A DNA stretch of 44,944 bases from Acidobacteriota bacterium (GTDB lineage: Bacteria; Acidobacteriota; Terriglobia; Versatilivoradales; Versatilivoraceae), in the NCBI GenBank assembly GCA_009841055.1, contig VXMN01000139.1, forward strand, positions 1-44,944, written 5' to 3'. This document shows, one piece after another, positions 1 to 25,671 of the stretch. The notes beneath the pieces were generated by a model that did not search any database, was not told the DNA's origin, and worked only from the letters and a program-made list of their open reading frames with translations. Position numbers and translations under genes: made by a program. Every line of letters starts with the position of its first letter. The stretch's first letter is position 1.

Positions 1-345
1 GCCGGCGGTGGTATCAACCTCACGCCCGCCCGCGTCGGTGTATTTACACCGGCGGTTAAAATCCTGCGCGACGCCTCTAAGGGCGGGATTCCGTGCTGGG
101 TGGGAGGGATGCTGGAATCGGCGGTGGGGGCCTGTCACTGCATTGCCCTGGCCACCCTCGCCAACATCGGCTATCCCGCCGATATCTTCCCCTCCAGCCG
201 CTTCTACCGGAAAGACCTTTCCGTTCCGGAAATCGAGCTTTCGGCTCCCGGGCGGATCCGGGCCCTGCCGGGGCCGGGAATCGGCTGCGTCCCCAACCGG
301 GGCGAGCTGGAGAGGCTGGTGGTGGAGTCCTGTCGGTTAGGTTGA
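1..345 (+). CDS. Enolase-superfamily enzyme, C-terminal part (OSBS / N-acylamino acid racemase-like)
   Basis: The frame is open from base 1 and stops at TGA 343-345, so only the last 114 residues are in the window. The visible part starts AGGGINLTPARVG and carries GGMLESAVG, the typical C-terminal barrel signature of o-succinylbenzoate synthase / N-acylamino acid racemase proteins. It ends in the usual GPGIGCVPNRGELE tail. The family uses a divalent metal to stabilise an enolate intermediate, in menaquinone synthesis or in racemising N-acyl or dipeptide substrates. The metal ligands and the catalytic KxK lysines lie upstream of the window, so the substrate cannot be inferred. The ORF track's ATG starts inside this frame are internal. 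Confidence 0.8.
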   Translation, partial: AGGGINLTPARVGVFTPAVKILRDASKGGIPCWVGGMLESAVGACHCIALATLANIGYPADIFPSSRFYRKDLSVPEIELSAPGRIRALPGPGIGCVPNRGELERLVVESCRLG

Positions 346-382: not shown

Positions 383-1327
383 ATGAACAGTACCGATCTC
401 CGAGTGGTCCTGGAGCCCGAAATACCCGATTACGATCCCGAGCTTTACCGATACCAGACGGTGGCCGAGGGAATCACCGGTTTCGAATCCGTCAGTGAGG
501 AGGAGTTGGCCCGCTTTCGGCAACGCGGGTACCTGGTGGTTCACCAGGCTTTTTCGATGGCCCGGGTGGAGGCGGCCAGGCAGGAGCTCTATCGATTGGG
601 GACCAGCCCGCGGCCGGATTGCGAGTCGGTCTATTTCGAGGGTGCCGTCAGGCAGCAGTTGCCGGCTCTGAAGGGGAAGTCGGTTGCCGCGCCCAAAGGC
701 CGGCGATTCGTCGATCTGGCCCTGGGGCACACGGACAACCACTTGCCGCCGCTCGAACCGGCAACCCGAATGCGTTTTGTTCGCAAGTTCATGGGCTTCA
801 CCCGGGAGGAGAACCCTGCCCTCAAGGCCGTGGCGGAGGATCCCGCTCTCATGCGGGTGGTCGGCCGGATTCTGGGAGGTAAGCCGGGGCTCTACCAGGA
901 TATGGCGCTGATCAAGCCTCCCGGCGGCCGGGAGAAGCCGTGGCACCAGGATCGCGCCTACTTCAACCTCACGCAAACCACCCGGATCGTGGGCGTCTGG
1001 ATCGCGCTGGACCGGGCCACTCCCGAAAACGGCTGCATGCAGGTGGTCGAAGGGGGACATCGACAAGGCCCCCGGGTGCACTTCATGAGGCGTGACTGGC
1101 AGATCTGCGACAGCGAGGTGGCGCGGCTTCCCCGGGTGGCGATTCCCATGAGGGCCGGCGGCTGTCTGTTGTTTGACGCGCTCTTGCCGCACGGCACTCC
1201 AGCCAACCGCACCGACCGGCAGCGCTGGGCCGTGCAGTACCACTACGTGTCGTCCGACAGCCGGGAAACCGGAGACGAGGATCGCCTGGCCGTGTTCGGG
1301 TCGGAGGGCAAGGGTGTGAGCTGCTGA
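383..1327 (+). CDS. Phytanoyl-CoA dioxygenase (PhyH) family protein
   Basis: A 314-residue Fe(II)/2-oxoglutarate dioxygenase of the PhyH family. The double-stranded beta-helix holds the iron triad: H188 and D190 in WHQD, and H270 in DALLPHGTPANRT. The downstream arginine (about R281 in RQRWAVQYHY) is the likely 2-oxoglutarate anchor. Length and motif spacing match the family. These enzymes hydroxylate very varied substrates (fatty acyl-CoAs, ectoine, small metabolites), so the substrate is unknown. The gene starts 37 bp after the enolase-superfamily gene and precedes an HpaI-type aldolase on the same strand, which suggests a catabolic cluster. The 381-residue ORF on the opposite strand (368-1513) is a shadow. 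Confidence 0.85.
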   Translation: MNSTDLRVVLEPEIPDYDPELYRYQTVAEGITGFESVSEEELARFRQRGYLVVHQAFSMARVEAARQELYRLGTSPRPDCESVYFEGAVRQQLPALKGKSVAAPKGRRFVDLALGHTDNHLPPLEPATRMRFVRKFMGFTREENPALKAVAEDPALMRVVGRILGGKPGLYQDMALIKPPGGREKPWHQDRAYFNLTQTTRIVGVWIALDRATPENGCMQVVEGGHRQGPRVHFMRRDWQICDSEVARLPRVAIPMRAGGCLLFDALLPHGTPANRTDRQRWAVQYHYVSSDSRETGDEDRLAVFGSEGKGVSC

Positions 1328-2605: not shown

Positions 2606-4531
2606 TCACTGCGCCGCCTTCAACTTCCGATAGGCCGCGGTCCCCATGAGCCCGGGGTTGTCCTCGGCGAGGTCCAACGGCGTCTTGCCATCCTTGTCCT
2701 GAGACTTGGGGTTCGCCCCCGCCTCCAGAAGAAACGACACAATTTTCGGATCGAAATTGGAATCAGCGGCGAGGTGCAGGGGGGTCCGGCCGCGAGCGGG
2801 CTCGGGTGCGTCGAGGTCGGCGCCGGCCTCCAGCAAGGCGCCGATGATCTCGGGATTTTCGCTGAGTCTGGCTGCCAGGTGGAGGGAAGTGTTGCCATGT
2901 TTGTCTTGAGCATTCGGATCTGCGCCCCGCTCGATCAGGACATTGATGACCTCCGGATTGCTGTTGGATCCGGCCGCCAAGTGCAGGGGAGTCCAACCGA
3001 GCTCGTCCTGCAGTTTCAGGTCGGCCCCTTGCTCGAGCAGGAAAGCAAGAACGTCAGGACTGGTGTTGGACCTGGCGGCCCAGTGCAGGACGGTTCTGCC
3101 GCGGCTGCCCCGTGCCTGGACATTGAGGGTGATGCCCTCCTTGACCAAAGCAGCCAGGATTTCCGGATTGGTGTTGGACATGGCTGCCGCATGCAGGGGA
3201 GTGAAGCCGTTTCTGTTCGTGGCCTCGGGATAGGCGCCGGCCTTGACCAGGGCGGCGATCACGGCGGGATTGGTGTTGGACGCGGCTGCCGAATGGAGTG
3301 GAGTCCCGCCGCCTTCTGTCCCGGCGTTGGGATCGGCTCCCCCTTTGAGGAGCTCAGCGATCTTGGCAAGATTAGCAGCTGCCTTGGCCTCGGTCGCGTC
3401 CCTGCCCGCCTGGGTCAACCTGGAGACGATCTGAGGATCATCGGTGGACTTGGCGATGGCCGGATCCGAAAATACTTTGGCCAGTGCGAAAAAGTAGGAG
3501 GGATCCCTGAGTTGGGCGAGGGCGGATGGATCTTCCAACATCTCCAAGGTCTCCGCGATCCTCTCGGGATGGTCCCTGAAATCGCGCAGAAAGTGTTTGG
3601 ACAGCCTCTCGGTTGGATCTTCGATCCTGTCGGGTCTTAGGGAATAAGCTCTGGCAGCCTCATGCAGGGGAGAGTTTCCATATTGGTCCTTGGCATTGGG
3701 GTTGGCACCCGCCCGGATCAGTTCGGCGATGAGCCGGGAATTGTCGTTGAATCCGGCCGCCTGGTGCAGGGGAGTCGCACCGTTCTCATCCCGCGCATCG
3801 GGGTCGGCGCCCGCCTTTGCCAGGACGGCGATGAATTCGACGTTCTGGTTGAGCATGGCCGCACGGTGCAGTGCGGTAGAACCGTCCTCATCCTGGGCTT
3901 TGGGGTCTACCCCGGCTTTCAATAGAGCTGTGACGATTGCAGGCGTGCTGGCGGCCGAGGCCGCCGTGTGCAGGGGCGTCTTCCCGTCTTCATCCCGGAC
4001 CCCGGGATCGGCGCCGGCCTCCACCAGTGCAGCGATGACGGCGGGATTCCTGGCGCCGTACCAGGCAGCCTTGAACAGAGGAGTCTCCCCACTTGAATCC
4101 CGAGCGTTGGGATCGGCGCCTGCATCGATCAGTGCCGGGATGATGTCGGGACTGCCGGTTTCCATGTTGGCGGCGGACAAGGCGGCTCCATGCAAGGGAG
4201 TCCAACCGCGACTTGCCCGAGCATTGGGGTCGGCGCCTGCCTGAACCAGCGCGGAGACCATGGAGGAATTGGCGATACCACGGGCGATGTGGTGCAATGG
4301 TGTCTCGCCGTCTTCATCCCGGGCCTTGGGATCGGCGCCGTTTTGGAGACAGGTGGTGACGTCCTCGAGCGAAGCCGTCTTGAAGAATTCGGGTGTATTC
4401 CAATGAGTGCAGTCTTGACCGGTGTCTTTTTCCGAGGTCCATCCAGGCGTCGCCGGTATGACCGTAAACCCTGCGACGGTGCCGATGAGCATCAGGACAA
4501 CCCGCCGTGGCCCATTCCCTTTACGCTTCAT
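2606..4531 (-). CDS. Exported ankyrin-repeat protein (downstream paralogue)
   Basis: A 641-residue protein starting at ATG 4531, where GGGAGA sits just upstream. The ORF track's 4564 start is a TTG without support. An N-terminal signal peptide (MKRKGNGPRRVVLMLIG...) is followed by CTHWNTPEFFKTASLEDVTTCL, with Cys about 41 and 61, perhaps a disulphide. About seven ankyrin repeats follow, of the pattern DExGxTPLHxAAxxNxNPxVIxALLxAGADPNA. A charged, non-ankyrin helical spacer spans about residues 296-385, then a second block of about seven repeats runs nearly to the C-terminus. It lies 36 bp downstream of a paralogue with the same N-terminal plan, probably in one operon from a tandem duplication. 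Ankyrin repeats bind proteins; no catalytic domain is present and the partner is unknown. Confidence 0.88.
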   Translation of the reverse strand: MKRKGNGPRRVVLMLIGTVAGFTVIPATPGWTSEKDTGQDCTHWNTPEFFKTASLEDVTTCLQNGADPKARDEDGETPLHHIARGIANSSMVSALVQAGADPNARASRGWTPLHGAALSAANMETGSPDIIPALIDAGADPNARDSSGETPLFKAAWYGARNPAVIAALVEAGADPGVRDEDGKTPLHTAASAASTPAIVTALLKAGVDPKAQDEDGSTALHRAAMLNQNVEFIAVLAKAGADPDARDENGATPLHQAAGFNDNSRLIAELIRAGANPNAKDQYGNSPLHEAARAYSLRPDRIEDPTERLSKHFLRDFRDHPERIAETLEMLEDPSALAQLRDPSYFFALAKVFSDPAIAKSTDDPQIVSRLTQAGRDATEAKAAANLAKIAELLKGGADPNAGTEGGGTPLHSAAASNTNPAVIAALVKAGAYPEATNRNGFTPLHAAAMSNTNPEILAALVKEGITLNVQARGSRGRTVLHWAARSNTSPDVLAFLLEQGADLKLQDELGWTPLHLAAGSNSNPEVINVLIERGADPNAQDKHGNTSLHLAARLSENPEIIGALLEAGADLDAPEPARGRTPLHLAADSNFDPKIVSFLLEAGANPKSQDKDGKTPLDLAEDNPGLMGTAAYRKLKAAQ

Positions 4532-4567
4532 GATTTCTCCCGATTCGCAGGCAAGTCCGGGCAACGA

Positions 4568-5899
4568 TCACTGACCTTGGTTCAAGCGGCCGGAGATGTC
4601 GGTGTCCTTGAGCTGGTCGTTTTCTTCCAGAAGGCTCACCGGCGTCCGGCCTAGCTCGTCTTTCACCCGCGGATCGGCCCCTGCCTCCAGCAACACGGTG
4701 ATCACGTCGGGATTGCCGTTGGACTGGGCTGCCTCGTGCAGGGGTGTCTCGCCCAATTCATCCTTGGCTCTTGGGTCGGCTCCCGCCTCGAGCAGAACAG
4801 AGATGATGGCTGGATTCTTGTTGTAGCCGGCTGCTTTGTGCAGGGGAGTCGCGCCATCCTCATCCCGTGCCTTGGCATCAGCCCCCTTCTCCAACAGTGC
4901 TTTCAGGATTCCGGGGTCGGTACTATGAAAAGCGGCCCTGTGCAGCGGAGTATCGCCATCTTCGTCGCGCGCATTGGGATCGGCTCCCGCCTCGATCAGG
5001 GCCGTCACCGTTTCAGGATGGGTACAGGTCGGAGCTATCTGGTGCAGGGGAGTCTGCCCGTCTTCATTCCGCGCGTTGGGATCGGCTCCCGCCTTCACCA
5101 GGGTGGCAATGACCTCTGCATAGTGGTTTCCGTAACTGCCCACCATGAACAGAGGCGTGTGACCGGATTCATCCCGCGCGTTGGGATCGGCCCCGGCCTT
5201 CAGCAACCGGGTCAGGACTTCGAGGTTGGGGTTGCGCTGGGCGGCCCAATGCAGGGGCGTGGAGCCGTGGTTGCCTCCCTCGTTGGGGTCGGCGCCGGCC
5301 TTTAGTAGAACGGTGATGATGGCGGGATTGACGTTGGACATGGCCGCTCTTTCCAACGGAACCCGGCCATAAGGACCGGCTCCCCGCGCCTTGGGATCGG
5401 CGCCGGCGTCTATCAGGGCTGACATAATTTCAGGATTAGGGTTGAAGGATGCCGCCGCCTCCAGCGGGACCAATCCCCGCCTTTCCTGCGCCTTGGGATC
5501 GGCGCCGGCGCCGATCAGGGCTGAAATCACTTCAGGATTGGCGTTGAAGGATGCCGCCACTCCCAAGGGCGTCCATCCCTGCTCGTCCGGCGCGCCGGGG
5601 TCGGCGCCGGCCTTTACCATAGCCGTAATGACGCCAGGGTCGGGGCTGTGGCGGGCCGCGGTGTGCAGCGCGGTCTGTCCATACTGGTCGGCTCCAGTGG
5701 GGTCTGAGACCTGCTTCATACATGCATTTACGTCCTCGACGGCGGCGACCCGGAAAAACTCTTCGGTGTTCCATTGGTCGCAGCTTGCGCGTTCGTCGGC
5801 AGCCGCATGGGCACCCGGAGGGGCCGGCACCGATAGCGTCCCCATCGCCAGCGTGAGGAGCAGGGTGACCTGCCGGATTGTCGGTCGTTTCGGTTTCAT
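4568..5899 (-). CDS. Exported ankyrin-repeat protein (upstream paralogue)
   Basis: A 443-residue protein. I place the start at ATG 5899 because GGAGG lies 4-5 bases upstream; the longer ORF to 5944 has no such site. A signal peptide (MKPKRPTIRQVTLLLTLAMG...) ends near GAHAAADERA, so export past the inner membrane is likely. The mature N-terminus CDQWNTEEFFRVAAVEDVNACM matches that of the next gene, including both cysteines (about 40 and 60). Roughly eleven ankyrin repeats then follow without an insert. The two genes look like the product of tandem duplication followed by repeat gain or loss. A binding or scaffold role in the periplasm or at the cell surface is inferred from architecture only. 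Confidence 0.87.
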   Translation of the reverse strand: MKPKRPTIRQVTLLLTLAMGTLSVPAPPGAHAAADERASCDQWNTEEFFRVAAVEDVNACMKQVSDPTGADQYGQTALHTAARHSPDPGVITAMVKAGADPGAPDEQGWTPLGVAASFNANPEVISALIGAGADPKAQERRGLVPLEAAASFNPNPEIMSALIDAGADPKARGAGPYGRVPLERAAMSNVNPAIITVLLKAGADPNEGGNHGSTPLHWAAQRNPNLEVLTRLLKAGADPNARDESGHTPLFMVGSYGNHYAEVIATLVKAGADPNARNEDGQTPLHQIAPTCTHPETVTALIEAGADPNARDEDGDTPLHRAAFHSTDPGILKALLEKGADAKARDEDGATPLHKAAGYNKNPAIISVLLEAGADPRAKDELGETPLHEAAQSNGNPDVITVLLEAGADPRVKDELGRTPVSLLEENDQLKDTDISGRLNQGQ

Positions 5900-6216
5900 C
5901 ACGCCTCCGCATGGCCGAGCCTGCCGCCACGGATCCGGCCCCATTGGGTTTCCCGAATCTCAGGCCCAAGGCGGTTTGCCGCTGTCCGGACGGTCGTTGA
6001 GCTTTAGGATGAGAACATTCTACTTGTTAATTATAGCCGACATGGGGACAACCCCGAAAAACCTGCCACTGGGACAAGTCAGCGCTGCGCAAGCGCAGAC
6101 CGGGGAAGCGGCGGCCGGTACCCTCGTTGACCTCGAACATCCGGAACAGATAGCAGCCTCCCGCGGATTCCCGTCGTCCTCGTTACGAAAATGCGCAGGT
6201 CTTTCCAAAATATTCG
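5900..6216. other. Divergent intergenic region between the ankyrin pair and the gntR operon
   Basis: This gap carries the 5' regions of both divergent units. It holds a perfect TATAAT on the minus strand at 6030-6035 and a small GC palindrome, TGCGCAAGCGCA. I see no gene. The 428-residue ORF on the plus strand (5391-6677) reads antisense through the ankyrin gene and only its last 141 codons are real. Confidence 0.5.
6030..6035 (-). promoter_or_regulatory. Candidate -10 box for the ankyrin operon
   Basis: A perfect TATAAT on the minus strand, about 130 bp before the ankyrin ATG at 5899. No convincing -35 box lies 16-18 bp upstream, so this is a weak prediction. Confidence 0.3.
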
Positions 6217-7589: not shown

Positions 7590-9404
7590 ATGAACCTGAC
7601 GCGACACCTCATTGCCAACGACTTTCGCTACCTGCGGTCTTATCTGAGCGTGTGGTGGGCTCTGTTGATCTTGCAGGCCGTCTTGATGGGATCTTACGCC
7701 CAATTGTTTTCCGCCGAAGGGATGTGGCTATTCAGCCCGTCTTTCCTGGGGTTGCTGGTCGCAGTACTCAAGCTCTGTATGTTGACGCTGATCGTATCGG
7801 AGGCGGTACGGAAGGATGCCACCACAGGCACCACTGCCTTCTGGTTGAGCCGCCCCTTTTCCAAGGGTCGGCTGCTGGCGAGCAAGTCCCTCTTCCTGGC
7901 CTTGGTTGTCTTGCTTCCGGACCTTCTGGTGCAGGTCGTTTTGCTCCTGGTCCGTGGCGTCGCCCTGGAGGATACCGTCCGCTCCATTCCGCAGATCGTC
8001 CTTCTGACCCTGTTCACGATCGTCGTTCTAACGATGCTGACGGTTTTAACCACCAGCCTTCCCCGACAGATCTTCTTTGGGATCACTGCGCTGGTCGCCC
8101 TGCCGCCGCTTTGGTTCATCTTGTTTCAGCTTTTTTCCATGTCTTTTTCCCTGGTCCTGAGCACTCTGCAATTTCCGGGCCAAGACCTTCCCGTTGTGAT
8201 GCCTGTTCCCACTCCCAGTTTCAGTCTGCACGTGATGGGCATGCTTCCGGTCCTTCTGGGAATAGCCGCGATCGTCGTTGTCCATCAGTATCTGACGCGA
8301 CGGACGTTACGCAGCAGGATCCTCCTCTTCTCGGCCCTCTCCCTTGCGTTGATGTCCATGGGATTCTGGAACCCGGATTGGCGGGCAACGGCGCCCAAAC
8401 TCGACACGGGGATTCTGGATCCGACCCGGGTCGCGGCCTGGATCGAGAAAAAGAGTCTGATCATGGCTCCAGTCACAACGTCTCGTCCGGACTTCGACCC
8501 GGCAGGGAAAAAAGGGCTGCTCCTCAAAGGCAGCATAGCGCTGGACAATCTGCCTCCGGGCGTGGTTGTGCTCCCGGCTCAGATCTCCGCCAGCCTCCTC
8601 CTGCCCTCCGGAGAATCCCTGGCCCACCATGTCAGTCGCAGCTTCTATGCGTTCCAGGCCATGAAACCCATTCATTCTTCCGGTCGACTGCTTGACGAGG
8701 ATAGAGCCGAATTGCTCGGTCAGGCGTTGGACGATGTCGCATTCCTGGACGGTGAGAGTTTGTCGGGGGAAGGACCTCCGGAGCTGTTTGAGATCAGCAA
8801 GGATCTCTATGAGCGTTATGGAGAGGACAGATTGCAATATTCGGCCCAGGTGGATTTTCTGGTCCAAAGGGACGAAATCGCCACCATACGGTTGGAAAAG
8901 GGGGCTCGTTACCATCGAGGCTCGGACCAGGTGGAGATCCTATCGATTGACCGATACTATTCGGACGGGTCAAACACCTTTCAATTTGAGATCCCCGCAA
9001 GTGAACGACTCGATCACAACGGCTTGTCCATCCGCTTCATGGAGTTTACCCACAGGCTCCTTGTGGACGACCGAAACGTCATCACCTATCTCTTGATCAA
9101 CCCGTCCCGGCGGGAAGCGATGATCGGCTGGAAGGGCCGTCCGGCAGGTAGCTCCCTTCGGACTCCCCCCCTGCTGTCATTGGTCTTCCCGATGCTGAAG
9201 GTTGGACAGGGGCTGCTGAATTTCGGTCCATCATTGTTTGGGGGGCCTCCCCTCGACCCGGCCTGGATGGACGGTGCCGAGCTGATTCGGGTTGAAACAA
9301 CGGATCTGGGTTGGTTCTCCAAGTCCATCCGCCTGGAGGACCTCGTCCTAAGACGCATCGCCCGACCTCCTGCTGCATTATCACAGCCCGGGAATGAGAG
9401 TTGA
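7590..9404 (+). CDS. ABC-2-type permease with large C-terminal domain, paralogue 1
   Basis: A 604-residue membrane protein, start MNLTRHLIANDFRYLR. About seven hydrophobic segments lie in the first 262 residues, the last two flanking the conserved HQYLTRRT motif. A hydrophilic C-terminal domain of about 340 residues follows, starting near ILDPTRVAAWIEKKS and ending with DLGWFSKSIRLEDLVLRRIA. If the N-terminus is cytoplasmic, seven segments put this domain outside the inner membrane. I do not recognise the domain. The two following genes encode the same architecture in the same order, so this is one of three tandem copies. The start is 10 bp after the ATPase gene. Confidence 0.85.
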   Translation: MNLTRHLIANDFRYLRSYLSVWWALLILQAVLMGSYAQLFSAEGMWLFSPSFLGLLVAVLKLCMLTLIVSEAVRKDATTGTTAFWLSRPFSKGRLLASKSLFLALVVLLPDLLVQVVLLLVRGVALEDTVRSIPQIVLLTLFTIVVLTMLTVLTTSLPRQIFFGITALVALPPLWFILFQLFSMSFSLVLSTLQFPGQDLPVVMPVPTPSFSLHVMGMLPVLLGIAAIVVVHQYLTRRTLRSRILLFSALSLALMSMGFWNPDWRATAPKLDTGILDPTRVAAWIEKKSLIMAPVTTSRPDFDPAGKKGLLLKGSIALDNLPPGVVVLPAQISASLLLPSGESLAHHVSRSFYAFQAMKPIHSSGRLLDEDRAELLGQALDDVAFLDGESLSGEGPPELFEISKDLYERYGEDRLQYSAQVDFLVQRDEIATIRLEKGARYHRGSDQVEILSIDRYYSDGSNTFQFEIPASERLDHNGLSIRFMEFTHRLLVDDRNVITYLLINPSRREAMIGWKGRPAGSSLRTPPLLSLVFPMLKVGQGLLNFGPSLFGGPPLDPAWMDGAELIRVETTDLGWFSKSIRLEDLVLRRIARPPAALSQPGNES

Positions 9405-9526: not shown

Positions 9527-11317
9527 ATGAACCTGACTCTTCACCTCATTGCCAACGACTTTCGCTACCTGCGGCTCTATCTGAGCTTGTGGTCGGGCCT
9601 CGTCATCCTGCAGGCCGTATTGATCGGGGCATTCCCACAGCATGCTCCGGGTGAATGGAGAGGGATTATGTCCCTGTCCTCCTTGTCGTGGCCGCTGGCG
9701 ATCCTGAAGGTCTGCCTTTTGACCGTGATCGTCTCGCAATTGGTGCAGAAGGACTCCACCGTAGGAAGCACCGCCTTCTGGCTGAGCCGCCCGATTGCCG
9801 CAAAGCGTTTGCTGGGAAGCAAGTTGATTTTCCTGCTGGTGGCTGTGGTCCTTCCGGTCCTTGTCGTGGAAATCCTGCTGCTGTCTGTTCGTGGAGTCAT
9901 CCCGGAAGACATTCTCCGCTCCATTCCCCAGATCGTCTTTCTGCAGATCCTGCCGGTTGCCGTGGCGATGATGCTGGCATCCGTGACTTCCAACCTGCCG
10001 AGACTGATTTTCCTGGGGGTAATTGCCCTGGTGGCGCTGCCCCTGCTCTGGTTTATCTTGTCGTATCTGTTCACCGCTGTGTCGGGAACAGTCACCGTCG
10101 AGAACGACGACGTCCCTCTCACAATGCCGATTCCCCCTCCCAGCTATAGCTCATTCCTGATAGGCATTCTTCTGGTCCTGGTTGGGACTTCCGGGGCCGT
10201 CGTCGCGCACCAGTATCTGACCAGGCGAACGATGCTCAGCAGAGCACTTTTCTTTTCGGGAGTTTTGGTTGCGCTGCTATCCATGGGGTTCTGGAGCAGA
10301 CATATTTGGGAGACGGAATCCGGATCCGATTCCGGGATCCTCGATCCGACACAGGTTACGACCAGGATTGAGGGAAAGAGCCTGGTCTTCGCTCCAGTGA
10401 CGGAATCGCTTCCGGTCTTTGACCTGGCCGGAGAAAAAAAGATGCTCCTCAGAGGAGATATAGCCCTGGACGATTTTCCACCGGGTGTCGTTGTGCTCCC
10501 GGCTCAGGTCTCTGCGAATCTCGTTCTTCCGTCGGGAGAATCCCTGGCCCGCCATGTCAGTCATGGTTCGTATGCGTTCATGGCTACGTTCCCCTTTGGA
10601 CCTGATCGACGATTGACCAGGGAGAAGGCCGAGTCTCTCGGTCAGACCCTGGGGGATGTCGAATTCCTTGACGGTGGACAGATGTGGGGGGACGGGCCTC
10701 CGGAGCTGTTTGCCATCAGTGACGACCTGTATGAGCGTTACAAGGGTGTCAGGACCGTCTATTCCGCCGAGGTGGACTACCTGGTGCAGAAAGACGAAAT
10801 CACAACCATGCGGCTGGAAAAAGGATATCGCTTTGAACGAGGCTCCGACCGGGTTGAGATCCTGTCAGTTGACGAGTCCTATCGTGGGGGGCTGACCGTT
10901 CTCATCAGCGAGTCTACCCACAAGCTCATGGGAGACGGCCGCAAAGATGTCGTGTACCTTTTGATCAACACGTCCAGAGGGCAAGCCCTCCTGGACTTGT
11001 GGTACAGCACGGATAGCGACTCCATGTCCAGCCCTCCTCTTCTGTCGTTTATCTTCCCGATGCTGGCGGTCAGGCGATTGAAACTCCAGTTCGACCCACC
11101 AAGGGACGGTCCTCCAATCGATCCCGGCTGGTTTCAAGGGGCCGAGCTGATCCGAGTCGAGACCAGGGACTTGGGTTGGTTCTCCAAATCGATCCAACTG
11201 GAAGGCTTCGTCATGGAACGAATTGCCCACCCGGCGGCTGCAGCATTGCAGCCTGGAGAAGAAGGCCACCAGGAGTTCTCAGAGCGGACCCGCCGGGGCT
11301 CAAGACCTGGTGAGTAG
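9527..11317 (+). CDS. ABC-2-type permease with large C-terminal domain, paralogue 2
   Basis: A 596-residue paralogue of the preceding gene. The first 40 residues are close to identical to paralogue 1 (MNLTLHLIANDFRYLRLYLS), and the DNA around both start sites is also very similar. It shares the membrane region, HQYLTRRT, ILDPTQVTTRIEGKSLVFAPV and the terminal DLGWFSKSIQLEGFVMERIA. The 122-bp spacer before it holds no recognised promoter; GGTGGGG lies upstream of the ATG. It may form heteromeric permeases with its neighbours or serve as an alternative subunit for the single ATPase encoded upstream. Confidence 0.83.
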   Translation: MNLTLHLIANDFRYLRLYLSLWSGLVILQAVLIGAFPQHAPGEWRGIMSLSSLSWPLAILKVCLLTVIVSQLVQKDSTVGSTAFWLSRPIAAKRLLGSKLIFLLVAVVLPVLVVEILLLSVRGVIPEDILRSIPQIVFLQILPVAVAMMLASVTSNLPRLIFLGVIALVALPLLWFILSYLFTAVSGTVTVENDDVPLTMPIPPPSYSSFLIGILLVLVGTSGAVVAHQYLTRRTMLSRALFFSGVLVALLSMGFWSRHIWETESGSDSGILDPTQVTTRIEGKSLVFAPVTESLPVFDLAGEKKMLLRGDIALDDFPPGVVVLPAQVSANLVLPSGESLARHVSHGSYAFMATFPFGPDRRLTREKAESLGQTLGDVEFLDGGQMWGDGPPELFAISDDLYERYKGVRTVYSAEVDYLVQKDEITTMRLEKGYRFERGSDRVEILSVDESYRGGLTVLISESTHKLMGDGRKDVVYLLINTSRGQALLDLWYSTDSDSMSSPPLLSFIFPMLAVRRLKLQFDPPRDGPPIDPGWFQGAELIRVETRDLGWFSKSIQLEGFVMERIAHPAAAALQPGEEGHQEFSERTRRGSRPGE

Positions 11318-15664: not shown

Positions 15665-16807
15665 ATGCCAGGTTACGACGTGGCCATTATCGGTCTGGGG
15701 GCGATCGGAAGCTTCACCGCCCTGGAACTGGCCGGACGGGGAGCCTCGGTGATCGGCTTCGACCGGTTCTCCCCTCCCCATGAGAAGGGCAGCCACGGAG
15801 GCGAGACCCGGGCCTTTCGCACCATCTACACGGAACATCCCGATTACGTGCCGCTGATGAAGCGGGCCCTGGAGCACTGGGAGCGTCTTGCCGAAGAGAG
15901 CCGCCCCGACCTGCTGACCTGGACGGGGGTGCTGAGCCTGGGAGAGCCCGACAGCCCGCTGGTCGACGGAGTCCAGCAAAGCGCCGAGGTTCACGGATTG
16001 CCGGTTCAGGTCCTGTCGGCGGATGAGGTCCGGCGGCGCTTTCCCGCCTTGAATCCCCCGGAGAACTTTACGGGACTGCTGGACGCCCGGGCCGGTCTGA
16101 TCGACGTGGCGGCCGCCCTGGGCTGCGCTCTGCAGGGAGCCCGCCGCCTGGGAGCCGAGCTGCGGCTCGACCAGGAAGTCCAGGGGTGGTCGGTCGAGGG
16201 GCGGGAGGTTCAGGTAAGTACCCGCGCAGAACGTATCCGGGCCAAGCGGCTGGTGGTCGCCGCCGGGGCCTGGAGCGGCGCCATCCTGAAGGCCTTGAAG
16301 CTGCCACTGGTGGCGCGGCGGCAGGTGCTGACCTGGTTCAGACCTCACCGGCCGGAATGGTTCCGGCCCGGCGCGGCCCCCATCTTCGTCTTTGCTCCCG
16401 GCGGCTTCTATGGTTTTCCCGAGATCGCCGGCGCCGGCGTCAAGATCGCCTATCACGAGAAGGGCGACCCCCTGTCGGAATTTCCCGTGCAGGTTCCTCC
16501 GCCATCCGAAGCCGACCTGGACCCCCTGGTGCGGGATATCGCCCGGTTTGTCCCGGGCCTGCTGGACTCCCGCCGTCCCCCGCTGGACCAGATGCTGGCC
16601 GCCAGGACCTGCCTCTACACCATGACCCCCGACGGCCACTTCATCCTCGACCGCCATCCTCGATACGAGCAGGTGCTGTTCGGGGCAGGATTTTCCGGCC
16701 ACGGGTTCAAGTTCGCGCCCGTGATGGGAGAGGTCCTGGCCGATCTGGCCCTGGAGGGAAATACCACCCAGCCCGCCGATTTCCTGAGGCTGGAGGGGAG
16801 ATTCTGA
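15665..16807 (+). CDS. Monomeric sarcosine oxidase-like FAD-dependent oxidoreductase
   Basis: A 380-residue DAO-family flavoprotein. The N-terminal Rossmann motif is IIGLGAIGS, followed by GSHGGETRAFR, the sarcosine-oxidase form of the second FAD-contact region. C316 in AARTCLYTMTPDGHF matches the position of the cysteine that covalently binds FAD in monomeric sarcosine oxidase. GAGFSGHGFKFAP closes the FAD site. The family oxidises N-methyl or secondary amino acids, giving the imine and hydrogen peroxide. It starts 35 bp after the OCD gene and ends the three-gene unit. The substrate may be sarcosine, N-methyltryptophan, pipecolate or another amine. Confidence 0.88.
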   Translation: MPGYDVAIIGLGAIGSFTALELAGRGASVIGFDRFSPPHEKGSHGGETRAFRTIYTEHPDYVPLMKRALEHWERLAEESRPDLLTWTGVLSLGEPDSPLVDGVQQSAEVHGLPVQVLSADEVRRRFPALNPPENFTGLLDARAGLIDVAAALGCALQGARRLGAELRLDQEVQGWSVEGREVQVSTRAERIRAKRLVVAAGAWSGAILKALKLPLVARRQVLTWFRPHRPEWFRPGAAPIFVFAPGGFYGFPEIAGAGVKIAYHEKGDPLSEFPVQVPPPSEADLDPLVRDIARFVPGLLDSRRPPLDQMLAARTCLYTMTPDGHFILDRHPRYEQVLFGAGFSGHGFKFAPVMGEVLADLALEGNTTQPADFLRLEGRF

Positions 16808-16814
16808 GTGGGGG

Positions 16815-17465
16815 TGGGTGCTCTCTATGCGCCGCATTCGCGGCTGGGTTGGAGCGGGCCCAGACGACCCCGGGTTGCCATCCGGGGCTACCCTGAGCCG
16901 CAGCTTCGCAGCTCTATAAGGATGGCTTGTCGCCGGCGTTAGCGTGGCCTACCCACGGCAACCGCAGCTTCGCAGCTCTTCCCTAACCCACAACACTGCA
17001 AGGGGAAACGTGCTTATTTATTGGAATATTTTTCCGGGTGGGGGATCAATGGGCCGGTCCAGCGCTGGGCTCGGGCAGAACCTCCATGAGAGCTTTCAGC
17101 GTCTGGTCCAGGTCGGCGTCGGTGTGGGCGGTGGAGACGTACCAGGTTCCCCGGCCGGTGGTGCGGATCCCCTTGTAGACCAGGTCGGTGACTTCCCCAC
17201 GCGACGTTTCCCGATAGCTCGCCCCGGGCTCGTGACAGGGGCATTTTCTAAATAGAAAAGCACGTTTCCTCTTGCAGTGTTGTGGGTTCGGGGAGAGCTG
17301 CGAATGCAGCGGTTGACGTGGGTTACCCGGCGAGACGTCACCTACGGGCCATCCTTACAGAGCTGCGTAGCTGCGGCTCAGGGTAGCCCCGGGCGGCAGC
17401 CCGGGGTCGTATGGGTTCAGCACCCACCCAGCCGCGAATGCTGCGAATAGGAAGCACCCGTACGG
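16815..17465. mobile_element. Inverted-repeat cassette carrying an aminotransferase gene fragment
   Basis: Two arms of about 215-220 bp (16815-17033 and 17241-17465) are inverted copies of each other. They share the ordered blocks GGCTGGGT, CGACCCCGGG, GGCTACCCTGAGCCGCAGCT, GGATGGC, CCACAACACTGCAAG and GAAACGTGCTT. Between them lies 17046-17192, a copy of the 3' end of the neighbouring aminotransferase gene. A third arm copy stands alone at 25322-25532. No transposase is present. The structure looks like a non-autonomous element or the product of recombination between inverted repeats. Confidence 0.6.
17046..17192 (-). pseudogene. Copy of the 3' end of the adjacent class III aminotransferase gene
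   Basis: Read on the minus strand it gives TDLVYKGIRTTGRGTWYVST and on to a TGA stop. The first 31 residues are identical to the C-terminus of the gene at 17555-18877, with six changes in the last 16. Both copies are 147 bp from stop to breakpoint (17046-17192 and 17555-17701). Upstream of the breakpoint the reading frame no longer matches well. Confidence 0.8.
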
Positions 17466-17554
17466 GAACGCAATGCCTCTCCAATCAAACGCAGCCCGCA
17501 ATCGAGCCGGAGGGAGCAAACGCGGCGCCACAATAATGACTATCAGGCGGAGAA

Positions 17555-18877
17555 TCAAAAGGCCATCCCCGCGCTGGGCTCGGGCAGAACCTGCGCAAAA
17601 GCATCCAGCGTCTGGTCCAGGTCGGCGTCGGTGTGGGCGGTGGAGACGTACCAGGTGCCCCGGCCGGTGGTGCGGATTCCCTTGTAGACCAGGTCGGTGA
17701 CCAACTGCTGGTAGGTGCGGTCGTCGCGGGTGGCCCATTCGCGGTAGTCGTGGAGGGCCTCCCGGTCGGTGAGGCTGACCTGCACCACCGGTCCCAGGCC
17801 GCCCACCAGGGCAGGGACTTCAGCGATTCGCAGCCGCTCCGCCAGTCCTTCGCGCAAGCGGCCACCCAGGCGGTTGAGGTGGGAATAGACGGCTTCCCGG
17901 TCTCCGGTGAGGGTCTGAAGGGTGGCCAGGCCGGCGGCGATGACCACCGGATTGCTGTTGTAAGTGCCGGCGTGCACCACCTGGCCGCTGGAGATCAGGT
18001 CCATGAACTCGGCCTTGCCCACCACGGCGCTCAAGGTGAATCCGCTGGCGATGCCCTTGGCGTAGGTGGCCAGGTCGGGGGTAACGCCGAAGATCTCCTG
18101 GGCCCCTCCCAGGGCCAGGCGGAACCCGGTAATCACTTCGTCGAAGATCAGGACGGACTCATAGCGGTCGCAGAGGCTGCGCAACCCCTCCAGGAAGCCG
18201 GGACGAGGCATGAGGCTCCCCGAGTTGCACATCACCGGCTCGGTCAGGATGGCGGCAATCTCGCTGCCGCGCCGGGCGAACAGGTCCTCCAGCAGCTCCA
18301 GGTCGTTCCAGGGCATGATGATCAGGTTGTCGGCGGCGTTGGCCACCTGGCCCTTGCTGGGCAGGACCGGGTCGGGGCTGCTGCGGTCGCCCCGCTGATC
18401 GGCTCCCGGAGCCGTCGAGACGAAGAGACTGTCGTACCAGCCGTGCCATTGCCCCTCGAACTTGACCACCAGGTTGCGCCCCCGGTAGGCCCGAGCCGCC
18501 CGAAGGGCCGTGATCACGGCCTCGGAGCCGGTGCTGTTGAACCGGACCCGCTCGGCGCAGGGAATCGCCCGGATCAGAAGCCGGGCCAGTTCGACCTCGG
18601 CCTCGTGTTGACCGGCGAAGACCAGGCCCCGGTCCAACTGCCGGTGGACAGCCTCCAGAACCTGTCGGGGACTGTGGCCCAGCAGCAGCGGCCCCTGTCC
18701 CAGGACATAGTCGATGTACTCGTTGCCGTCCACGTCGCGGATCCGGCTTCCCGAGCCCGACTCGAAGTAGAGGGGATGGGGGAGCTCGGCCTTGCGCACG
18801 TCGCTGCTGACCCCTCCGGCCAGAAATTCTTTGTTGTCTTCAAACCAGCGGGCGGATTTTTCCAGGGTCATGGGCAT
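17555..18877 (-). CDS. Class III aminotransferase, glutamate-1-semialdehyde 2,1-aminomutase-like
   Basis: A 440-residue fold-type I PLP enzyme. Features in order: RDVDGNEYIDYVLGQGPLLLGH, FNSTGSEAVITALRAARA (phosphate-binding region), EGQWHGWYDS, LIFDEVITGFRLALGGAQEIFGV with the PLP-contacting Asp, and TYAKGIASGF with the Schiff-base lysine K274. The layout and the GxxHAGTYNSNPV region match the HemL branch. Many HemL-like proteins outside heme operons are ordinary aminotransferases, and no heme gene lies near. It is followed on the same strand by a displaced copy of its own 3' end. Start ATG 18877 has only a weak upstream site; ATG 18871 is also possible. Confidence 0.88.
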   Translation of the reverse strand: MPMTLEKSARWFEDNKEFLAGGVSSDVRKAELPHPLYFESGSGSRIRDVDGNEYIDYVLGQGPLLLGHSPRQVLEAVHRQLDRGLVFAGQHEAEVELARLLIRAIPCAERVRFNSTGSEAVITALRAARAYRGRNLVVKFEGQWHGWYDSLFVSTAPGADQRGDRSSPDPVLPSKGQVANAADNLIIMPWNDLELLEDLFARRGSEIAAILTEPVMCNSGSLMPRPGFLEGLRSLCDRYESVLIFDEVITGFRLALGGAQEIFGVTPDLATYAKGIASGFTLSAVVGKAEFMDLISSGQVVHAGTYNSNPVVIAAGLATLQTLTGDREAVYSHLNRLGGRLREGLAERLRIAEVPALVGGLGPVVQVSLTDREALHDYREWATRDDRTYQQLVTDLVYKGIRTTGRGTWYVSTAHTDADLDQTLDAFAQVLPEPSAGMAF

Positions 18878-18900
18878 TTCCGTGGGGATGGACGGGTGGG

Positions 18901-25247: not shown

Positions 25248-25671
25248 TCGGCCCGCGTCAATGAATTTTTGCGAGCCCCATACCCGCGTTTAACCGGACT
25301 CCCAAGGCCAAGGTCCGAGGAACATTCAAAAAAATCCCATACCCCGGCAGTATCGTGGGTGAGGCGAGAGCTGCGAAGCTGCGGTTGGAGTGGGTAACCT
25401 GGCAAGACGCACCTTACAAGCCATCCTTATAGAGCTGCGAAGCTGCGGCTCAGGGTAGCCCCGGGTGTCAACCCGGGGTCGTTCCGGTTCCGCACCAACC
25501 CAGCCGCGAATGCGGCGAATAGGCAGCACCCGTCCCGTCACGCACAGCCTTTCCAGAACAGCAATCCCGGTAGCAACGGATTAGCTACTTCCCTCCGAAC
25601 CGCGCTGCCCCTTCCCCAACCCCTCCAAACACGCCGTTCTTCTCTACAATTCAACACCCCGTCCCCCAAAA
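25248..25671. repeat. Intergenic region with a third copy of the 210-bp repeat
   Basis: 25322-25532 is a stand-alone copy of the arm repeat found twice at 16815-17465. It contains GAGCTGCGAAGCTGCGG twice and two hairpins: CCCCGGG-tgtcaa-CCCGGGG and GCCGC-gaat-GCGGC. The remaining 140 bp towards the aminotransferase stop codon hold no recognised feature. The 71-residue ORF track frame here is part of the repeat. Confidence 0.65.

Follow-up and report, generated by a model that had tools for sequence, protein, structure and literature searches.

Inverted copies of a Y1 transposase-linked repeat family flank a duplicated aminotransferase gene end in an Acidobacteriota bacterium

The window, i.e. 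the whole analysed stretch of 44,944 nucleotides, originates from a draft genome of 4.32 Mb in 374 contigs (G000) and contains a gene encoding a class-III aminotransferase (Pfam Aminotran_3) next to which two inverted arms, here named L and R, enclose a second copy of the end of that gene (Table 1). Self-comparison of the window aligned the left arm at 16816–17022 with the inverted sequence at 17251–17459 with 83% identity (E about 1e-49), and the two arms of ~210 bp, 83% complementary to each other, thereby agree with the ~220 bp given in the original prediction. The right element is longer than claimed there, its homology to the repeat family described below starting at 17191–17193 and reaching about 17490–17497 (matches spanning 492–798 of the sub-window 16700–18900). 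The enclosed copy, A, matches the end of the intact gene, B, over 156 bp with 88% identity and zero gaps; 147 bp of it are coding and make up 49 codons, the stop counted, while the remaining 9 bp are non-coding, confirming an indel-free duplicate of the last 49 codons. The drift predicted for the last 16 residues was also found. On the protein level the 32 initial residues are identical and six of the last 16 differ (KALMEVLPEPSAGPAH versus DAFAQVLPEPSAGMAF), and on the nucleotide level A and B differ at 16 of the final 60 positions compared to 2/96 in the body (Fisher p = 4e-6). The combination of inverted arms and a gene-end copy is far above what is expected by chance.

Table 1. Position of the features at the aminotransferase locus (window coordinates).
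Feature	Position	Strand	Remark
L, left arm	16814..17039	-	copy of the transposase-associated repeat; nhmmer 4.6e-68
A, putative former 3' end of the aminotransferase gene left stranded, L-occupied allele	17037..17192	-	gap-free match to 17546–17701
A/R junction, GGTCGGTGAC/TTCCCC	17183..17198		~2 bp shared sequence
R, right arm, long repeat copy	17193..17497	+	nhmmer 17223–17489, 1.2e-85
GTAG foot and CCCCGGG..CCCGGGG hairpin in R	17384..17408	+	inverse copy in L
Spacer, putatively of the L-empty allele	17498..17545		resembles the G003 sequence downstream of the same gene
Intact class-III aminotransferase gene, 3' end = B (17546–17701)	17555..18877	-	PF00202, 1.3e-60

The outer end of L is truncated, 8 bp past the stop of the upstream gene, and R is truncated at its inner end, at the junction with A, and intact at its outer end. 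R is also devoid of a GCCGC..GCGGC block which complete copies elsewhere carry inward of the junction point. When all seven genomes of the genus were searched, the 16-mer across the A/R junction was present in G000 alone. The outer end of R is adjoined by a short motif, GCCCGCAATCGAGCCGGAGGG (17494–17520), which may be a separate small repeat and which has similar motifs at the locus in G002 and G003.

A search of G000 with the region gave 109 matches at ~50 places, and the same repeat family occurs in many copies in all six congeners (G001–G006) and practically not at all in other genera. A marker sequence of the family was also found in the genome records Acidobacteriota bacterium RHO1_bin_34 and Candidatus Versatilivorator vitaminiformans; the host genus accordingly belongs to Acidobacteriota and is probably sponge-associated. 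The copies have ~210–300 bp in common and in nearly all complete copies GTAG is located directly 5' of a CCCCGGG..CCCGGGG hairpin, in which two stem pairs carry compensatory changes with the pairing kept, lending modest support to a conserved hairpin. On some neighbouring hairpins a CnGA foot could be seen, by eye only. A third copy in the window (25306–25557, plus strand) has a counterpart at the corresponding site in G003, in G005 and probably in G002, and none in G001, which means that copies have been gained or lost one at a time. L and R are independent copies of a dispersed, REP-like family of long inverted repeats.

Among the copies examined six head-to-head inverted pairs were identified. 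One of them, on contig C243 (L109), consists of arms at 1–212 (minus strand) and 801–1059 (plus strand) surrounding an intact Y1 transposase gene, in accordance with the suggestion that a matching transposase should be sought. The encoded protein of about 154 aa matches Pfam Y1_Tnp (2.3e-25) and passes the NCBIfam IS200 model NF033573 (77.8 bits, cut-off 55), while its 26.3 bits against the RAYT model NF047646 are below the cut-off of 80; its matches in PDB are Y1 transposases, e.g. that of ISHp608. G000 contains no other close homologue. A second, weaker Y1 transposase match is located at 367–690 of contig C177 (L138), and the head-to-head pair on contig C41 holds a transposase remnant. The same layout of arms around the transposase is present in G003 (L127), where it is syntenic and aligns with the C243 locus over about 1.5 kb, and G006 and G001 harbour one homologue each in what seems, judged by eye, to be the same gene neighbourhood. 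Close homologues are therefore limited to one per genome where present. From this association it is inferred that the transposase moves, or has moved, the arms.

The arms and the transposase constitute a REPtron/TIRtron-like system, a term preferred to RAYT since by protein model the transposase resembles IS200 and does not reach the RAYT cut-off. REPtrons consist of one Y1 transposase gene, kept in position between relatives and with inverted repeats on both sides, and REP-RAYT repeats are dispersed in many copies of 20–40 bp having a GTAG foot and a GC-rich hairpin (PMC2817692). The transposase described here, in both C243 and G003, likewise lies between two inverted family repeats with a GT(A/G)G foot (here GTAG) before a GC-rich hairpin (CCCCGGG), but the repeats are about 210–300 bp and the protein falls outside the RAYT model and inside the IS200 model. 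In TIRtrons, which include an acidobacterial group with e.g. Koribacter versatilis, a Y1 gene (TIRYT) is situated between long inverted repeats that are sometimes themselves a moderately abundant dispersed family (PMC3733652). The long inverted repeats beside the Y1 gene form such a family here as well, although in another genus and with another repeat, and the long arms also hold the GTAG-footed hairpin. TnpAY1 class 3, found in Acidobacteria, shares the IS200-like protein, the REPtron-like setting and the high-copy hairpins (PMC6006769). The transposase is of the IS200 type, but IS200/IS605 elements have no terminal inverted repeats and move as a unit, whereas here the arms are inverted and the one close homologue per genome is syntenic between G000 and G003. 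The study identifies the arms as a repeat that is abundant in this genus of Acidobacteriota and tied to one transposase gene, and extends the REPtron/TIRtron idea to repeats of 210–300 bp that still bear the GTAG foot.

When comparing the locus between relatives, no arm was found in G003, G006, G001 and G004, while in G002 and G005 the gene end runs straight into L, at an inner boundary identical to that in G000, and R is absent; R is present at this place in G000 only. This distribution implies that L and R came to the locus independently, and the junction between gene end and L in G002 and G005 that A next to L is the native gene end and not cargo. The 3'-most 46 nt of A differ at three positions from G002 and at nine from B. 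The last 60 nt of B are closest to G005 (9/60), the sequence downstream of the stop of B resembles the L-empty locus of G003, and the working gene has its closest counterpart in G002 throughout the body except the final ~130 bp. Taken together, these comparisons suggest that A and B represent two alleles of one locus, A appearing to be the L-occupied allele with a G002-like tail and B the L-empty one. In G005 (contig C91, L058) a reading frame, by eye similar to the start of a tyrosine integrase, abuts the truncated outer end of L.

Most likely, two versions of one gene recombined on a single occasion and left the gene end behind between the arms. The history that we favour, with a confidence somewhat better than even, is that the arms are independent REP-like copies tied to the single Y1 transposase per genome and that A was left behind when haplotypes within the genus recombined. 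The resident aminotransferase gene would originally have ended in the L-occupied A, and the incoming DNA would have been a congeneric haplotype carrying the B tail, the spacer and the repeat copy R. Homologous joining may have taken place within the conserved terminal portion of the gene, and a second, illegitimate join presumably at A/R, where ~2 bp are shared, which would leave the resident end stranded between L and R and the working gene ending in B followed by the L-empty spacer. Exchange with DNA from a relative would be the simplest history, but a donor with B, spacer and R was not found. Two further findings speak against it. A and B share one base found in G000 only (ccaGgtcgg) and differ by just 2/96 in the body, which makes a duplication within the lineage followed by gene conversion possible, and the contig belongs to a 374-contig draft in which a repeat of about 300 bp could conceal a false join.

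The latter would be the case if the assembly had joined, within R, two metagenomic strains, of which one had R inserted into the gene next to A-L and the other carried B, spacer and R. R is long relative to short reads and several contigs (C357, C40, C276, C1, C243 and C339) end within copies of the repeat, but dozens of copies have been assembled through, the mere ~2 bp shared at the A/R junction demands real spanning reads, and an insertion of R in the gene of some strain is still required; such a chimera is regarded as unlikely. The shared base and the similar bodies would also be accounted for if the gene end had been duplicated locally and in tandem within one lineage, with R later inserted in between and A decaying as a pseudogene. 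Simple tandem duplication, named in advance as the alternative that would overturn a cassette, nevertheless fits poorly with two copies that look like different alleles: the differences are unevenly concentrated in the tail, the tail of A is closer to G002 than to B, and A is found beside L while B is followed by L-empty sequence like that of G003. An additional exchange with another haplotype would be needed, and we judge this explanation improbable. An insertion of the L-A-R unit accompanied by a 156-bp target duplication was considered and rejected, as A and B differ in their tails and downstream sequences.

The original prediction spoke of a non-autonomous mobile element or a recombination scar that could capture and shuffle gene ends. 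The scar and, through the Y1-tied repeat family, the link to mobile elements hold, but the capturing and shuffling cassette does not. That the arms and A form a non-autonomous cassette, mobilised by the Y1 transposase and with a captured gene end, is favoured by a head-to-head geometry that is the same as at the transposase loci of C243 and G003, but in G002 and G005 A and L lie in synteny at their native position, and ends acquired together, clean ends and an empty site lacking both arms would be expected, instead of L alone in these two genomes and truncated ends in both L and R. Neither did the arm search of the genome reveal pairs around other gene fragments; in the other head-to-head pairs checked the content is the transposase, a remnant of it or non-coding repeats, with no recognisable host gene piece, no second copy of the L-A-R unit was found, and of about 100 loci surrounding copies the window alone shows a gene end duplicated across an arm. 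The cassette is already largely refuted and now seems very improbable. Equally hard to credit is the idea that head-to-head long repeats serve as ends for the Y1 transposase, moving or duplicating their content, and that L-A-R is an early REPtron-like capture of a gene end. If recombination between haplotypes is taken as the origin, the locus suggests that such repeats can mark junctions at which close relatives exchange gene ends, with a decoy end remaining that an annotator could mistake for a captured gene.

Elsewhere in the window, 2606–5944 (minus strand) encodes two adjacent ankyrin-repeat proteins of 652 and 458 aa with numerous internal DNA repeats. The regions 8409–8951 and 10334–10873 are 74% similar and lie within adjacent long reading frames of 604 and 596 aa, for which a Pfam search gave no match.
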